Of a DNA stretch of 64,000 bases, positions 55,604 through 64,000 are shown piece by piece (the first letter of the stretch is position 1; each line of letters opens with the position of its first letter). The notes beneath the pieces were generated by a model. That model saw only the letters and a list, made by a program, of their open reading frames with translations. It had not been told where the DNA came from and did not search any database. Where the stretch lies: positions 55,108 through 119,107 of the forward strand of contig NZ_JAFEIG010000003.1 of the NCBI RefSeq assembly GCF_017495225.1. The letters run 5' to 3'. This DNA is from Daejeonella sp. Its GTDB lineage: Bacteria; Bacteroidota; Bacteroidia; Sphingobacteriales; Sphingobacteriaceae. The translations under genes and the position numbers were made by a program.

Positions 55604-55717
55604 AGGATTATGGTGGGAATTCGAAAAAAGGGAAATTGGGTTGGGAATATCATGGAGCAAATGGCTGAGATTTTTTTGAAGGAATGAATGGGCTTGCTTG
55701 CAGGATGCAGAAAATTG

Positions 55718-55747: not shown

Positions 55748-55902
55748 GAGGGCTTCTCGCGAAAACGCAGAGAAATACCACCGTTAAAAAAGATATGATG
55801 ACAACACCAACCAGAGATTGAACAAGAGCTTATTTACATAAATGAACCGAATCACCTTAATAAACCTTAATCCCTTAATGTTTATAAATTGGGTACCTAG
55901 GT

Positions 55903-55918
55903 ACAGGTCGCGACCTGT
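55903..55918. repeat. palindromic repeat ACAGGTCGCGACCTGT, inverted copy
   Basis: Perfect 16-bp palindrome. Its right flank (CCTCTTTCAAAT) resembles the left flank of the two copies near 62.7 and 63.8 kb in reverse orientation. A second palindrome, GTACCTAGGTAC, abuts on the left. Confidence 0.85.
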
Positions 55919-56012
55919 CCTCTTTCAAATCAATAAAAAATTGCACCACCAAATCTTTGTAAGCAAAAAACAGCGGGAAAATCTGCGGAATCTGCGGGAA
56001 ACAAAAAAAGAA

Positions 56013-56042: not shown

Positions 56043-56188
56043 AAAGGTTTCTCGTGGAGCTGTAATGAACTAGTAGATTTTAATTTCGGGGCTTGAAAAT
56101 GACCTATTTCCCTTAGACAAGCCCTTTAGTATTAAAACTTTGATATAAATATTAAGATAGAATTTATTGAAATAGCTAATTTTTTAAT

Positions 56189-56322
56189 ATTAAAGAAATT
56201 AATTATATTAGAACAATCGTTTTAAAATTCAAATAAATATTTTATTAAAAAAATTGCTTTTCATTTTTTTAATTCATGAAATGGTTTTCTATTAATTAGC
56301 GAATTTTTAAATTTCAATTAAG
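56189..56322 (+). repeat. duplicated upstream segment, copy A
   Basis: Shares ATTAAAGAAATTAATTATA at its left end and TCATGAAATGGTTTT plus ATTTTTAAATTT at its right end with 58450-58629. The poly-T-containing middle is also similar. It precedes the 63-aa membrane protein gene. Confidence 0.8.
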
Positions 56323-56356
56323 TAGTGTACGGTAAAATATTTTCAATTTCATAGTC

Positions 56357-56548
56357 ATGATAAATTATAAAACTCAATTTTTCCTATTTGTAACAATGAT
56401 TTCAATTTGTTTGGCAACATACATATTCATTGCAGTAAATTACAATGAGAACAAGACCTATCTGATTGCTTCCTTGCTTACACTTAACGTTTTAATGATG
56501 ATTCTTGTAAGTCAAGCAAAAAAAAATTACAAGAAGATTAAATGGTAA
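56357..56548 (+). CDS. small two-helix membrane protein, unknown
   Basis: I do not recognise a family. The 63-aa protein has two hydrophobic helices (FFLFVTMISICLATYIFIAV and LIASLLTLNVLMMILV), a short polar loop and a lysine-rich tail (KKNYKKIKW), which predicts both ends inside. Size and topology match the 62-aa protein next to the bacteriocin-like peptides and many immunity proteins, but the two sequences are not clearly homologous. It follows duplicated segment A, so it may be an orphan immunity-type gene left after loss of a peptide gene. Confidence 0.6.
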   Translation: MINYKTQFFLFVTMISICLATYIFIAVNYNENKTYLIASLLTLNVLMMILVSQAKKNYKKIKW

Positions 56549-56642: not shown

Positions 56643-57539
56643 ATGATGAAATTTATTTTATTTTTTTTAATCCTATGCTCAATCAATGTATTTGCTCAAG
56701 AGAATACTTTAGTGAAGGGCAAAATTATTAATCTCGAGACTAAAGAACCCATTCCCTATTGTTCTATAGTATATCTAAAAAAGGATAAAGGTGTTTTTTC
56801 TGATAGTTTGGGGAACTTTATTTTAAAGAAAGATCCTTTGCTTGATTCTATACAAATTACATCTTTAGGCTATGAGAAAAAGCTTTTATCAATACAAATA
56901 CTTGAAGCAAATAATCTTGTCATTTCATTAAAGCCAATCTATTTTAAACTTAATGAAGTCGCAATTACTCCAGATGACAATAAAATAAAACAAAAAAAAA
57001 ACAAGAAAAAGCTAGGTCCTATTGCAACGAAACTAAACTCGCCAAAGGGAATTGGACCAGGAGTCTTAGGTAGAATATCTGCAATTTATGTGGCAAATCA
57101 GACGCAAAATATACCTAAAAAAATAACTGAAGTTCATTATGATTTAAGAAACAGAAAAAATTCAATTGTCAGGGTTCAATTGTATCATAGAAATGAATTA
57201 ACAAATTTACCAGACAAAGCATTGATTTTAGAAGATTTAATTGTCAAGTTGAAACCTGGCCAAAATCGCTTAAATGTTAATATTGAAAAATATAATTTAA
57301 TGATGCCAAATAACGGTTTATTCGTCAGTTTGCAATGGTTAGGAGAGTTGGATGCTAAGGGACGTCACACAAATACTTATCTAAATATTAGTCCTGATTA
57401 CACCTTTAATGTAGATGACCATAATATATTAAATTATGTTAGTTTTTTAAATAAAAACTGGATAGCTGATAATTTCTTTTATGAAAAAAAATATTGGATC
57501 CCCCGTTTTGGCATTTCAGTTATAGAATATTCTAAATAA
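56643..57539 (+). CDS. secreted CarboxypepD_reg-like protein, paralog 1
   Basis: The preferred start is the ATG pair at 56643/56646 (MMKFILFFLILCSINVFAQ), which begins a clean signal peptide; the track TTG adds ten residues. Residues 20-95 form a carboxypeptidase-regulatory-like domain (VKGKIINLETKEPIPYCSIV ... SLGYEKKLLSI). The C-terminal domain contains VRVQLYHRN, PNNGLFVSLQWLGEL and the end FGISVIEYSK, shared closely with the next gene. It starts 2 nt before nothing else; its partner begins 2 nt after its stop, so they form a transcript. The role is unknown but is probably extracytoplasmic. Confidence 0.75.
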   Translation: MMKFILFFLILCSINVFAQENTLVKGKIINLETKEPIPYCSIVYLKKDKGVFSDSLGNFILKKDPLLDSIQITSLGYEKKLLSIQILEANNLVISLKPIYFKLNEVAITPDDNKIKQKKNKKKLGPIATKLNSPKGIGPGVLGRISAIYVANQTQNIPKKITEVHYDLRNRKNSIVRVQLYHRNELTNLPDKALILEDLIVKLKPGQNRLNVNIEKYNLMMPNNGLFVSLQWLGELDAKGRHTNTYLNISPDYTFNVDDHNILNYVSFLNKNWIADNFFYEKKYWIPRFGISVIEYSK

Positions 57540-57541
57540 GG

Positions 57542-58414
57542 ATGAAAACTTTAATTTTCTATTTCTTTCTCCAATTTATTTTTTTGGATTTAGTTGCTCA
57601 AAGCAAGTATATTAAAGTGCTTGATAATACCACAAAAAGGCCTATAGAATATTGCACAATTACCTGCTCTAATGATGCAAAGGGTGGTTTTACAAATATC
57701 GATGGTTTATTAAAAATTACTGACTTAAAGGATTGTGCTAGTATTACAGTAAATACTATTGGATATAAAAAAAGAATTGTGGATTTAACTAAGCTGCAAT
57801 TAGGTTTAGACACGTTATACTGCCTTTTAACTAAAGATACCATTCAATTAAATGAGATTAAAATCACTCCAAATAAAGATAAAGCAAAGAAGGTATTCTA
57901 TAATTTAGGCCATTTTAAAGCTAAAAATGAAATTTATAATCGAACAGGGGACATAGGTAGAACTGACGCACTTTACATCCCTAACCTTAATAAATCTCTA
58001 AATATTAAAATTGAAAAATTATTGTATTCAATTGATGCTACTGAATCGGCAAAAGTTAGATTACACATCTATACATCATCCAATTTAAAAACACCCGGTA
58101 CGCCTCTTATTAATGATGATCTTGTAATTAAAGTTGAGAAGGGTGCCAAGAAGATTGTTGCAGATGTTTCAAAATATAATCTAATAATGCCAGAGGATGG
58201 TTTGTTTATCTCCTTACAATGGCTCGGAGAGATAAAGGCAATGAATAAAACTAAGAATATTAACCCTATTATTAAATCACATTGGGACAAAGATTTTAAT
58301 AGTGTTACTTTTTTTAAATTCCTTGATGGAAATTGGGAAAAAAGATATTTTAAATCCAAAAATGGTAATATTATACCAAATTTTGGTATTTCAGTTATAG
58401 AATATTCTAAATGA
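57542..58414 (+). CDS. secreted CarboxypepD_reg-like protein, paralog 2
   Basis: The 290-aa protein has a signal peptide (MKTLIFYFFLQFIFLDLVAQ), an N-terminal regulatory-like domain (YIKVLDNTTKRPIEYCTITC ... TIGYKKRIVDL), and a C-terminal domain ending PNFGISVIEYSK, nearly identical at the end to paralog 1. Tandem duplication is clear. It lies just before the bacteriocin-like peptide locus and is enclosed by duplicated segments A and B, so it could belong to that accessory module. No enzymatic motif is visible. Confidence 0.75.
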   Translation: MKTLIFYFFLQFIFLDLVAQSKYIKVLDNTTKRPIEYCTITCSNDAKGGFTNIDGLLKITDLKDCASITVNTIGYKKRIVDLTKLQLGLDTLYCLLTKDTIQLNEIKITPNKDKAKKVFYNLGHFKAKNEIYNRTGDIGRTDALYIPNLNKSLNIKIEKLLYSIDATESAKVRLHIYTSSNLKTPGTPLINDDLVIKVEKGAKKIVADVSKYNLIMPEDGLFISLQWLGEIKAMNKTKNINPIIKSHWDKDFNSVTFFKFLDGNWEKRYFKSKNGNIIPNFGISVIEYSK

Positions 58415-58633: not shown

Positions 58634-58816
58634 ATGAAAACATTGAATTTAAAGGAAATGGAAGTTATTGAAGGTGGGGGAATGAACCAAAGAAATTGCG
58701 GAATATCTGGAGCTTGTATTGCAATTGGTGTTATTGCTGGTTTCGCTAGTTTTGGGTTGGGTTGGAAGGCTGCAGGAGCCTGTGCTGCAATTGCTCTAGC
58801 TGGTGATTGTTTTTAA
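58634..58816 (+). CDS. bacteriocin-like peptide with double-glycine leader (60 aa)
   Basis: The precursor begins with a 15-residue double-glycine leader, MKTLNLKEMEVIEGG, with the hydrophobic pattern (L, M, I) that C39 peptidases recognise. The predicted 45-residue mature part is Gly/Ala-rich, has four cysteines (RNCGISGAC, GACAAIALAGDCF) and a central hydrophobic helix, typical of membrane-active class II bacteriocins. Two disulfides are possible. A C39 ABC exporter and a thioredoxin-like protein lie downstream. Antibacterial action is inferred; a signalling peptide is the alternative. Confidence 0.85.
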   Translation: MKTLNLKEMEVIEGGGMNQRNCGISGACIAIGVIAGFASFGLGWKAAGACAAIALAGDCF

Positions 58817-58842: not shown

Positions 58843-59031
58843 ATGTATAATAAAAGTAAAGTGAGCACTGATATTTTGTTAATATGCCTTAGTGTATTTT
58901 TAATATTAAACTTGCAAATTAAATTTTGCGACCCAACATGGAATCTTGGTGTTCCTGTCTTTTTTTTATTACATCATGCTAGTCAAATTATTGAAAAATT
59001 AAAAACAAAAAAAAATGAAAAAAATAACTAA
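58843..59031 (+). CDS. small membrane protein, candidate immunity protein
   Basis: I do not recognise a family. The 62-aa protein has two hydrophobic segments (ILLICLSVFLILNL and LGVPVFFLLHHA) and a lysine-rich C-terminus (KLKTKKNEKNN). It sits between two double-glycine peptide genes, 26 nt after the first, and its end overlaps the start of the second by 17 nt in another frame. Immunity proteins of class II bacteriocins often have this size, topology and position, so immunity is a reasonable but unproven role. Confidence 0.6.
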   Translation: MYNKSKVSTDILLICLSVFLILNLQIKFCDPTWNLGVPVFFLLHHASQIIEKLKTKKNEKNN

Positions 59032-59167
59032 TGTAGAAATGTCAAATATCCAAGGCGGTATAAAATGCATTTACCATTTTATGGCTGTATTACCTCTTGG
59101 GATTTGGAATGTATTTGGTAACGGAAAGTCTGTTATAGAATGTTGGAATAATCACCACAAAGAATAA
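59015..59167 (+). CDS. second double-glycine leader peptide (50 aa)
   Basis: This ORF is below the track's length limit. The leader MKKITNVEMSNIQGG has the same length and pattern as the first peptide (V/I, M, I, GG). It is followed by a 35-residue mature part (IKCIYHFMAVLPLGIWNVFG...) with two cysteines, aromatic residues and a polar His-rich tail. It overlaps the preceding membrane gene by 17 nt and ends 8 nt before a strong terminator. Two precursors in one transcript suggest a two-peptide bacteriocin or two separate cargoes of the same exporter. Confidence 0.8.
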   Translation: MKKITNVEMSNIQGGIKCIYHFMAVLPLGIWNVFGNGKSVIECWNNHHKE

Positions 59168-59175
59168 AAATCTTT

Positions 59176-59205
59176 AAAACAGGGGCCAAAACACCCCTGT
59201 TTTTT
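59176..59205 (+). terminator. terminator after the peptide genes
   Basis: AAAACAGGGG / CCCCTGTTTT, a 10-bp stem with an 8-nt loop and a T-run, directly after the 50-aa peptide gene. It separates the peptide transcript from the export genes. Confidence 0.92.
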
Positions 59206-59222
59206 AATAACTCATTGTCTTT

Positions 59223-59879
59223 ATGCTCAACCAACTCAAGACCTACCCCACGGTATGGCTATTCATATTTTATTGCCTTTATCTTTCTTGTATCAACTAT
59301 TTCGTACAAACATTTTTATTTACTGAAAATGTTATTTACAATAGCTATGCGGAACAATTAAGCTTTGATAGAATTGAAGAAATCATTGATGAACAAAACA
59401 AATATTCATGGCTTGGATATTTAATAATTCCTTTACTACAAGCTATAAAATTCTTTTTAGTAGCCTGTTGTTTAGCGGCTGGCGCTTTGTTTTTTGATTT
59501 AAAACTAAAATTTGGCCAAGCCTTTAAGGTGGCACTTTTAGCAGATGTAGTTTTTATTGTGCCCATGTTAATTAAAATTTTCTGGTTCATGGTAATAAAG
59601 CAAGATTATACATTACAAGATTTGCAAATGTTTAGTCCGCTTTCTGTACTAAACCTAATGGACACCAAAAATATAGGTGTTTTATGGCTTTACCCACTTC
59701 AATTACTTAATGTTTTTGAGCTTGTATATATTTTATTATTAGGTTTTTGGGTTTACCAATTTGTTGCTAAAAGTTTTGAAAAAGGCTTAAATATGGTATT
59801 AAGCTCCTATTTGCCTGCACTATTTATCTGGATAGTTTTAGTAATGTTTGTTACATTAAATTTAAACCCGCAAGCTTAA
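59223..59879 (+). CDS. polytopic membrane protein of the peptide export locus, unknown
   Basis: I do not recognise a named family. The 218-aa protein has about five or six predicted transmembrane helices (e.g. VWLFIFYCLYLSCINYFV, LLQAIKFFLVACCLAAGALF, LPALFIWIVLVMFVTLNL) and a loop with several acidic residues after the first helix. It overlaps the next gene by one base (TAATGA), so it is coupled to the thioredoxin-like gene and the C39 exporter. It could be an export accessory factor or an immunity protein. No CAAX protease motif is visible. Confidence 0.7.
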   Translation: MLNQLKTYPTVWLFIFYCLYLSCINYFVQTFLFTENVIYNSYAEQLSFDRIEEIIDEQNKYSWLGYLIIPLLQAIKFFLVACCLAAGALFFDLKLKFGQAFKVALLADVVFIVPMLIKIFWFMVIKQDYTLQDLQMFSPLSVLNLMDTKNIGVLWLYPLQLLNVFELVYILLLGFWVYQFVAKSFEKGLNMVLSSYLPALFIWIVLVMFVTLNLNPQA

Positions 59880-60394
59880 TGAAAAAGAAAAAATATCTTT
59901 TACTGGCCATTGTATTAGTTTTAATGAGTTTTACTGGCTATTTAGTGAGTAAAATTATAATTACCAAACAACAAAATGCTATTGTAAAGTCCACCAAACA
60001 AACCCTACCCAATTTTACTTTTTACAATTTAGATAGTCTTGCTACTAACAGTACTTTTATAAAAAAGGGTAAGTCCGTTTGTATTTTTTATTTCAATGCA
60101 GAATGTGAGTACTGCCAAAACGAAGCCAGAGACATCAGTAAAAACATTGCGCTATTTAAGGACACTCAAATTGTGATGGTAAGCTTTAATACCATTGCTG
60201 ATATTAAAAAATTTGCTTTAGAATATGGCTTGAATTATCCCAATATTGTTTTTTTACAAGATCCCAAATTTCAATTTTCAAGCTGGTTTGGCAAATCGAG
60301 TATTCCTTCCGTTTTTATATATAATGCGCAGCATCGTTTGGTAAAAGAATATCAAGGAGAAACCAAGATTGAAGCCATAATTAAGTATCTCTAA
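59879..60394 (+). CDS. membrane-anchored thioredoxin-like (TlpA/redoxin) protein
   Basis: The 171-aa protein has one N-terminal transmembrane anchor (YLLLAIVLVLMSFTGYLV) and a thioredoxin-fold domain with CxxC in NAECEYCQNEA and the cis-Pro loop SSIPSVFIY. The domain should face the periplasm. It lies inside an operon exporting cysteine-containing peptides, so it probably forms, reduces or shuffles their disulfides; that is inference from position. It overlaps the membrane-protein gene by one base. Confidence 0.88.
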   Translation: MKKKKYLLLAIVLVLMSFTGYLVSKIIITKQQNAIVKSTKQTLPNFTFYNLDSLATNSTFIKKGKSVCIFYFNAECEYCQNEARDISKNIALFKDTQIVMVSFNTIADIKKFALEYGLNYPNIVFLQDPKFQFSSWFGKSSIPSVFIYNAQHRLVKEYQGETKIEAIIKYL

Positions 60395-60435: not shown

Positions 60436-62604
60436 ATGCTAAAGTTATCTTCTATTAAAAAGACTTTTGTTTTGCAACAAGATCAAAGCGATTGTGGCGT
60501 GGCTTGTTTATTGTCTTTAATTAATTATTACAAAGGTACCAATAGCTTAGAAAAGCTTCGCGAATTGAGTGGTACTACAATCACTGGGACCACACTTTTA
60601 GGTTTATACCAATGTGCAAACCAAGTAGGATTTACTGCAGAAGCATTTGAGGCAGATATGCCTAATCTAAAAGCCCTAAATGAGCCTTGTATTTTACATG
60701 TTTTAATGGAGGGCAATCTGGAACATTATATAGTATGTTACGGCTATGAACATGATTCTGCAACATTTATTATAGGTGATCCTGGAAAAGGATTAACGCA
60801 AATAACTGAACTAGAATTAGACCAAATTTGGCAAAGCAAGGCACTTTTACAGCTTATTCCAAAAGACAGCTTTGAGCTTAAAAAACAGCAACATAATGCT
60901 AAATGGCTATGGTTTAAACAATTAATAAAGGATGATTTAAATATTTTAACCATAACAATGGTACTGGGTGTTTTGGCTACAGTACTTAATTTGGCAACAG
61001 CAATTTTTTCGCAAAAATTAATAGACAATATTCTGCCATCGGGTAACCAACAGAAACTTATAATTAGTTTAGTTTTATTGTTTTTAGTCTTGCTTATTAG
61101 AGTAGGACTTACTTTTATAAGGCAACATTTTCTATTGTTGCAAAGTAAAGATTTTAACAATCGTATAGTAGGTAGTTTTTTCGATGCACTCGTTCACTTA
61201 CCAAAATCGTTTTTTGATAGCCGAAAAACAGGTGATATGATTACTCGAATGAATGATACCGCACGCATTCAAGAAAATATAGCTTATATTTCTGGCTATG
61301 TATTTATAGATATAATTATTTTATTTACCAGTTCATTTTTCTTAATTAACTACTCACTAAGCATTGCATTAATAACCTTTGCTTTTATACCTATAATTGT
61401 TCTTGTTATTTTAAGCTATACAAAGCCCATCAAAAACCATCAAAAAAATTTAATGATGGCAAGTGCTTTAAATGAAAGCAATTATATAGACACAATAAAC
61501 GGCATCATGGTAATTAAAGCTCAGGGCGAAGAGCGTTTTTTTACCCAAAAAATAAAAACTGTTTATGCTAATCTTCAGGATAAATCTTTTGCCTTGGGTA
61601 AGTTGGGCAATCGTTTTTCAATAACTACCGATATCATTAGTGTGGTATTAAGTTTGGTTTTAATTACAGTTGCTTCATTCATGGTGCTAAATAAACAGTT
61701 AAAAGTAGGTGAAATGATGGCCATAATTTCCTTGACGAGTACTTTAATACCAGCGGTTGGTCGTTTGTCGCAAATTAACCTGCAAATACAAGAATCAAAA
61801 GTAGCTTTTGATAGGATGTATGATTTTACTTCGATATCGCCTGAATTTGAAGTGGAGTCAATTGTACCCTTCGATTTTAAAAGTTTAGAGGCAAAAAACA
61901 TTTCTTTTCGTTTTGCCGGTCGGAAGCCTGTACTTCAAGATATTAGTTTTACCCTTGCCAAAGGTGAGATGATCGCTTTACTAGGCGAAAGTGGTTGTGG
62001 CAAAAGCACAACAATGGCTATTTTAGAAAAATTTTATCAGCCCGAAACTGGCGATATTTTGGTTAATGGTAAATCTTTGCAAAGCATTTATACACCAGCT
62101 TGGAGAAGCATGGTGGCTGTGGTACCCCAAGAAATAAAGCTTTTTAACGGCACATTATTGGAAAACATTGCCATTGGCAACCTTAGAGAAGATGAAGTAA
62201 TTAACATTATTCATTTTTGTAATCAAATGGGTTTTGATAAATATTTTGAAGCTTTACCACAGGGTTATTTTACCTTAGTTGGTGAAGAAGGGATAAACCT
62301 TAGCGGCGGCCAGAAACAGTTGCTTGCTTTAGCTAGAGCATTGTACCGAAAGCCTCAAGTACTGTTATTGGATGAGGCTACTTCTGCAATGGACAGAAAT
62401 ACAGAAAAATTTATTTTAAACTTGTTGGAAAGTCTAAAAAATGAAATGGCCATTTTACTAATTACACATAAAATGCAAACTGCAAAAATATCAGATCGAA
62501 TTTATGTAATTGAAAATGGGAAAATTACATCAAATGGCAGCCCAAATCAATTAATGGAATCAGATAATTTCTTTAGTCAGCTAGTTTCGGATGCAGTAAT
62601 GTAA
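60436..62604 (+). CDS. C39-peptidase-containing ABC transporter (bacteriocin exporter)
   Basis: This 722-aa protein cleaves double-glycine leaders and exports the cargo. Residues 8-140 are a C39 peptidase with catalytic Cys in QDQSDCGVACL, His in LEHYIVCYGY and Asp in IGDPGKG. A six-helix ABC membrane domain follows (about 165-450). The ATPase has Walker A GESGCGKST, signature LSGGQKQLLALARAL, Walker B VLLLDEATSAMD and the switch His in LITHK. All catalytic residues are intact. It lies 41 nt after the thioredoxin gene; no HlyD-type adaptor follows. Confidence 0.95.
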   Translation: MLKLSSIKKTFVLQQDQSDCGVACLLSLINYYKGTNSLEKLRELSGTTITGTTLLGLYQCANQVGFTAEAFEADMPNLKALNEPCILHVLMEGNLEHYIVCYGYEHDSATFIIGDPGKGLTQITELELDQIWQSKALLQLIPKDSFELKKQQHNAKWLWFKQLIKDDLNILTITMVLGVLATVLNLATAIFSQKLIDNILPSGNQQKLIISLVLLFLVLLIRVGLTFIRQHFLLLQSKDFNNRIVGSFFDALVHLPKSFFDSRKTGDMITRMNDTARIQENIAYISGYVFIDIIILFTSSFFLINYSLSIALITFAFIPIIVLVILSYTKPIKNHQKNLMMASALNESNYIDTINGIMVIKAQGEERFFTQKIKTVYANLQDKSFALGKLGNRFSITTDIISVVLSLVLITVASFMVLNKQLKVGEMMAIISLTSTLIPAVGRLSQINLQIQESKVAFDRMYDFTSISPEFEVESIVPFDFKSLEAKNISFRFAGRKPVLQDISFTLAKGEMIALLGESGCGKSTTMAILEKFYQPETGDILVNGKSLQSIYTPAWRSMVAVVPQEIKLFNGTLLENIAIGNLREDEVINIIHFCNQMGFDKYFEALPQGYFTLVGEEGINLSGGQKQLLALARALYRKPQVLLLDEATSAMDRNTEKFILNLLESLKNEMAILLITHKMQTAKISDRIYVIENGKITSNGSPNQLMESDNFFSQLVSDAVM

Positions 62605-62938
62605 TTTTCATTTAATGTTGTTCTTCTCGAGCAAATTGCACTATGCTAGGCGGTATTAACCATTACAATTAATCAACATTTTCTACACTCCTATCCCAGC
62701 CAGCCCTAATTCTCTGATTTCAAAGAGGACAGGTCGCGACCTGTCCCTACGCATAGGTGCTAAGCCAAATTTATCCGCCCAGCCTGACAACGGATAACGG
62801 TTTTGCAGTTAAGCGTGAGTTGAACTTTCGAAGTAATCATTGTCAACTAAGCAGAAAATTGATAAATGCACAAAGCTTGATTTAACCAAGAAAAATCAAT
62901 TTGGGTAGCTGCTGTTGTGAATTCGGTTTTCTTTTCTG
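62605..62938. other. gene-free gap with palindromic repeat
   Basis: No gene is visible. It contains copy 1 of the 64-bp direct repeat, a short CAGCCTGACAACGGATAACGG segment related to the heptamer repeats at 32.1 kb, and otherwise unremarkable sequence up to the end of higA. Confidence 0.8.
62711..62774. repeat. 64-bp direct repeat flanking higBA, left copy
   Basis: Starts TCTCTGATTTCAAAGAGG and contains the 20-bp palindrome GGACAGGTCGCGACCTGTCC (62727-62746). It is identical to 63821-63884. Confidence 0.92.
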
Positions 62939-63820: not shown

Positions 63821-63884
63821 TCTCTGATTTCAAAGAGGACAGGTCGCGACCTGTCCCTACGCATAGGTGCTAAGCCAAATTTAT
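63821..63884. repeat. 64-bp direct repeat flanking higBA, right copy
   Basis: Identical to 62711-62774, including the palindrome GGACAGGTCGCGACCTGTCC at 63837-63856. Both copies are followed by a CAGCC-containing stretch. Confidence 0.92.
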
Positions 63885-64000
63885 TCACCCAGCCAGATAA
63901 GATAAAGGTTAGAACAAGGAATAAGGAATAAAGAATAAATCCTGATCACCAACAAATTCCTGTTTTACTATTCCGCCAAGCCCGATAACTGATAACTGGC

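Follow-up and report, generated by a model that had tools for sequence, protein, structure and literature searches.

A candidate second-peptide gene of a two-peptide, disulfide-containing bacteriocin with bacteroidetocin-type export in Daejeonella

Does the 50-codon open reading frame (ORF) that begins within the end of a small membrane-protein gene in Daejeonella encode a product, and if so, what might that product do beside another short peptide gene and a peptide exporter? We addressed this question in a 64,000-nt window (the whole stretch of DNA analysed, which stops where its contig ends), and the features that bear on it are listed in Table 1. On our reading of the sequence the ORF at 59015-59167 rather probably encodes the second peptide (P2) of a two-peptide, disulfide-containing class II bacteriocin with bacteroidetocin-type export, the first peptide (P1) being encoded just upstream.

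Table 1. Coordinates of the peptide module and its export cassette in the window.
Feature	Coordinates	Strand	Description
Candidate promoter/5' region of P1	58411..58633	+	Diverged duplicate of 56150-56356 (repeats D1/D5, alignment)
Peptide 1 (P1)	58634..58816	+	60-aa precursor, GG leader, 45-aa Gly-rich mature part
62-aa two-TM protein, candidate immunity protein	58843..59031	+	ORF; homologous to TM proteins of L183 and L185
Peptide 2 (P2)	59015..59167	+	ATG start, 50-aa precursor: 15-aa GG leader, 35-aa mature part
Intrinsic-terminator-like hairpin, ACAGGGG...CCCCTGT + T-run	59176..59205	+	Between P2 and the export genes
218-aa multi-TM (5-TM) accessory protein 'TM215'	59223..59879	+	Profile A2; by gene content, equivalent to the TM protein of bacteroidetocin clusters
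Membrane-anchored thiol oxidoreductase (AhpC/TSA, TlpA-like), CEYC motif	59879..60394	+	PF00578 E=1.3e-11
C39-peptidase ABC exporter (PCAT)	60436..62604	+	PF03412 E=2.7e-31, PF00664, PF00005

The initial annotation had described a 50-aa ORF that overlaps the end of the 62-aa membrane gene and stops 8 nt before a terminator, and both statements hold. The start of P2 and the 3' end of the 62-aa ORF overlap by 17 nt in different frames, and as the P2 stop ends at 59167 and the hairpin with its T-run begins at 59176, 8 nt lie between them; the hairpin has a z of -3.5, with equally good folding in 1 of 200 shuffles. Translation of the ORF gives MKKITNVEMSNIQGG followed by IKCIYHFMAVLPLGIWNVFGNGKSVIECWNNHHKE, the mature part of which carries Cys3 and Cys28 and ends in ECWNNHHKE. 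With a GG cleavage site closing its 15-aa leader, a short hydrophobic core and a C39 exporter nearby, P2 has the attributes of a double-glycine-leader class II bacteriocin precursor. The resemblance proposed between the P2 and P1 leaders is likewise borne out, both matching the GG-leader pattern and being the sole matches among ORFs of 40-100 aa on both strands of the window. Markov-1 random sequence matched in composition yields 0.0003 GG-leader ORFs of this length per 808 bp (~0.02 per 64 kb per strand), against two in the 808-bp region here. Further copies of P2 were not found in the host genome.

Related cassettes (n=59) were collected with profile A2 of the 218-aa TM protein, and the closest parallel to the window module is a Flavobacterium cluster, L183, where P1, TM and P2 genes occur in the same order and the TM gene likewise overlaps the start of P2. 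All three products are homologous between the two loci. Window P2 retrieves L183 P2 with a phmmer E-value of 1.2e-7 among 11,483 small ORFs, and the mature parts align with a score of 60 versus 21±5 for shuffles, above 5000 of 5000. P1 of the window and of L183 are 54% identical (mature parts 124 versus 34, sd 6.6, again above 5000/5000), and the 62-aa TM protein scores 80 against its L183 and 70 against its L185 counterpart where shuffles score 25-28, the L183 score exceeding all 5000 shuffles. The L183 peptides are ISQRNCAVLGAAIALGTIGGFFSFGSSWAFAGAAVLTAANSDCF (P1) and LNCVYHAIAAVFIYTNPITAGIDYFWGSNGTSLSQCLSNSH (P2); P1 of the window reads GMNQRNCGISGACIAIGVIAGFASFGLGWKAAGACAAIALAGDCF. This shared arrangement of three homologous genes shows that the ORF at 59015-59167 is a real gene. 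That it might instead be a spurious ORF or a decayed peptide gene could be argued from its shortness, the AT-rich DNA, its overlap with another gene and a P2-like ORF elsewhere (L044) that has lost its leader. Against this stand the L183 homologue, syntenic and conserved, the chance expectation given above, and an intact frame, leader and terminator, so that this explanation is largely refuted by conservation and was rejected as highly improbable. The L044 ORF itself (L044:6508-6651), which ends in YECWMS and lies behind a fragment resembling an insertion-sequence helper gene, is a decaying P2 beside an intact exporter.

Four more modules of this pattern were found in three other genomes, which together with L183 strongly upholds the view that P2 is a real double-glycine peptide and a partner of P1, located beside an immunity-like TM gene and a C39 exporter of its own. 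Two of them lie in tandem in L185 as P1-TM-P2 (overlaps of 4 and 17 nt), one in L121 has the same order without overlap, and that of L048 (Capnocytophaga) has the different order P1-P2-TM-TM. On the same Flavobacterium contig as the tandem modules (L185:1-1786) there is also an extra TM gene, whose protein (1531-1716) resembles the 62-aa protein of the window. Beyond L183 and, more weakly, L048 (whose P2 scores against window P2 at a level reached by 0.08% of shuffles), P2-like peptides are tied to window P2 more by position and Cys pattern than by sequence. For P1, the other genomes searched in the same genus gave no more than two matches, both partial and borderline (E 0.006 and 0.009), its profile matched in a single one (G1422) of 89 Flavobacterium genomes, and plasmids gave no match.

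Curated bacteriocin profiles gave no match above cut-off, the best being PF10439 at 13.1 bits versus a cut-off of 27.1, with all NCBIfam matches below theirs; P1 matches the MccV profile weakly (E=0.016, under the family cut-off), and class IIb-type profiles (lactococcin G, lactobin A/cerein 7B) gave weak sub-threshold matches. A PDB profile search with P2 returned nothing convincing, and an AF2 model of P2 with helices at 6-28 and 30-48 (pLDDT 70), built from a two-sequence alignment, is too weak to serve as evidence.

A Cys at mature position 3-6 is common to all six P2 peptides, as is a second Cys 3-7 residues before the end, which lies within CWN in 4/6; GxxxG occurs in one of the six. P1 peptides share a Cys at 3-7 and a further one within 1-3 residues of the end, and 5/6 contain GxxxG. 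Compared across these modules there is a stable asymmetry, P1 being Gly-rich with its last Cys next to the C-terminus and P2 having an N-terminal Cys and, in most cases, CWN at the C-terminus. In the window, mature P1 contains GxxxG (GVIAG) and four Cys, two more than the shared P1 pair, and mature P2 contains two Cys and no GxxxG. The four-versus-two Cys count given by the initial annotation is therefore correct, but it is not the essential contrast between the peptides, since homologous first peptides have two Cys.

Adjacent GG-peptide pairs are present in at least 18 of the 59 cassettes by pattern and in ~24 by eye, the pairs with odd leaders that the pattern census missed (L108, L114, L118, L121, L171, L173) having been added by eye, and small TM proteins of ~50-80 aa follow or separate the paired peptides. 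The P1 subtype R[NGE]C...[DNE]C[FA] (the R-x-C...xCF type) is found in 5/59 cassettes, and a P2-type second peptide is found in every one of the five (hypergeometric 4e-6, and 1.6e-4 when the strict CW[NM] motif is required, a test to be read as a guide only since the subtypes were defined after viewing the loci and phylogenetically related loci were treated as independent). The idea of a two-component bacteriocin put forward earlier holds in part: P1 and P2 recur as a pair, and their joint action is a step that we infer indirectly from this pairing, from the co-occurring subtypes and from the single TM gene that accompanies both peptides in each of the window, L183 and L121. The last two of these observations speak against two independent one-peptide bacteriocins sharing an operon and exporter, each killing alone and possibly on different targets, with the TM protein guarding against one of them, as does the retention of both homologues together in L183. 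In favour of independence are the two TM genes per two peptides in L185 (P1-TM-P2-TM) and L048, and the many related cassettes with one peptide or several unrelated ones; weighing both sides we regard it as somewhat unlikely, and the system probably works, as far as the sequences tell, as a two-peptide bacteriocin. As ~35 of the 59 cassettes are single-peptide by pattern, the export machine has no need for a pair. At the other extreme, five different Cys-containing GG peptides lie upstream of one TM215-thiol-C39 cassette in L122 (2903-4306). One very conserved peptide, containing CGYNIAVSATVGGLFGGAGAVVGAVAAATGPSCLGWW, occurs in L129, L131, L132, L135-L144 and L146-L150 (mostly genus g15); its neighbours in these cassettes are a TM215-like gene and a protein with no more than weak similarity to the C39 exporter.

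Downstream of the hairpin is an exporter cassette with the gene content of the bacteroidetocin machinery, which the initial annotation had missed. Relatives of TM215 occur next to GG peptides and C39 exporters; its AF2 model is entirely helical, and a fold search with that model gave no match at E<=0.001. The exporter matches TIGR01193 with E=2.5e-130, yet under the curated cut-off, and no HlyD-like adaptor gene was noticed among the cluster ORFs of the window. The nearest exporters, 87% (L041) and 81% (L037) identical to that of the window, carry other peptides, and the homologous pair in L183 adjoins a far more distant exporter; cargo therefore appears, judging from these comparisons, to have been exchanged between export machines.

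From these elements a course of events may be proposed. P1, the 62-aa TM protein and P2 would be expressed from one transcript ending at the hairpin 3' of P2, with translation of P2 probably coupled to that of the TM gene through their overlap. By leader and exporter family, the C39 domain would cleave both leaders after GG and the ABC exporter would secrete the peptides. By analogy with bacteroidetocin production, where activity is weakened once the TM, thiol or peptide gene is deleted and four genes are enough for production in E. coli (PMC6671954), the thiol oxidoreductase would close the conserved Cys pairs with the assistance of the 5-TM protein. Outside the cell, P1 (Gly-rich and membrane-helix-like) and P2 might jointly target the envelope of related Bacteroidota, the producer being protected by its single 62-aa TM protein. 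P2 could alternatively be an export-dependent signalling (inducer) peptide with no part in a toxin. Some GG-leader peptides in Gram-positives are inducers, and L183 and L184 have an upstream response-regulator gene; in the window, however, no kinase or regulator adjoins the cluster genes, and P2 resembles a bacteriocin in size and hydrophobicity, retains two Cys and overlaps a TM gene, all of which makes the role of inducer quite improbable.

How, then, does this putative two-peptide bacteriocin relate to known systems? Bacteroidetocins (class IIf; Coyne et al. 2019) are single-acting, lack an immunity gene and inhibit their own producers (PMC6671954). They share with the window a Bacteroidota host, a Cys-containing GG-leader peptide with a 15-aa leader, and, matched by gene content, a 5-TM protein, thiol oxidoreductase and C39 ABC exporter. 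By description, bacteroidetocins A and B have similarly placed Cys and mature parts of 42-53 aa; the mature part is 35 aa with two Cys in window P2 and 45 aa with four in P1; single peptides of the GGKFW type (L038, L039, L049, L050) look nearer to bacteroidetocins than the window's pair does. Since its module encodes two distinct peptides together with a small TM protein, the cluster is no plain bacteroidetocin system. Class IIb bacteriocins (lactococcin G, lactobin A/cerein 7B) also combine two GG-leader peptides, one small TM immunity-like gene and a dedicated C39 exporter, but the window differs from those of Gram-positives in the conserved Cys of both peptides, its thiol oxidoreductase and 5-TM accessory protein, and its Gram-negative host. 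Canonical class IIb membership was considered and set aside: neighbouring peptide genes and an immunity-like gene are present, GxxxG in both peptides is not, and because P2 lacks the motif the cluster is not filed under this class and its helix-helix pairing is not indicated. Among Gram-negatives, the nearest precedent we found that combines a two-component toxin, a TM immunity protein and type I export is Cdz of Caulobacter (CdzC/CdzD/CdzI; PMC5380434), which likewise has two small leader-bearing peptides. Glycine zippers are present in both CdzC (86 aa) and CdzD (84 aa), and none of the five cdz genes encodes a thiol oxidoreductase (PMC5380434), whereas glycine-zipper repeats are missing in the window peptides (one GxxxG in P1, none in P2). 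Microcin V-type class II microcins resemble the window in GG leader and C39 exporter but not in its two peptides and apparent want of an adaptor. The description that fits the cluster best is that of a new, two-component form of the bacteroidetocin-type system.

Within the open-access literature the known class II peptide bacteriocins of Bacteroidota are the single-peptide bacteroidetocins without immunity genes, and a two-peptide bacteriocin from this phylum was not found there; the present cluster suggests that two-component toxins, each with a dedicated immunity protein, also make use of the bacteroidetocin-type export machine. There is perhaps an even chance that such modules form an obligate two-peptide, disulfide-containing bacteriocin family in Sphingobacteriaceae, Flavobacterium and Capnocytophaga, in which a swappable P1/TM immunity/P2 unit is mounted on the bacteroidetocin machine and P2 is a new peptide family. 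Paired genes as short as these can be missed in annotation; they supply defined, synthesizable peptide pairs for testing against Bacteroidota.

A sigma-70 promoter scan performed no better than shuffles, and upstream of P1 the Bacteroidota -7 element was not found. The duplicate of the P1 5' region at 56150-56356 precedes a 63-aa two-TM ORF (56357-56548) without a GG peptide; 56150-56548 is possibly an orphan immunity module that has lost its peptide. Similarity between the 63-aa and 62-aa proteins was not detectable. The window also has a tandem pair of genes for secreted CarboxypepD_reg-like proteins (56649-57539 and 57542-58414), for which immunity, receptor decoy or outer-membrane factor are candidate roles. 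In related loci, genes of this kind are often 3' of GGKFWG-type bacteroidetocin-like peptides (L039, L040, L041, L049, L050, L163), and none of these peptides was seen near those in the window. The cluster is also flanked by interspersed repeats with the palindrome GGACAGGTCGCGACCTGTCC (55898-55932, 62711-62790 and 63821-63900) and by two copies, at 55711 and 56006, of a 49-nt repeat containing CCCGCAGATTTCGCGGATCAGCGCAGA.
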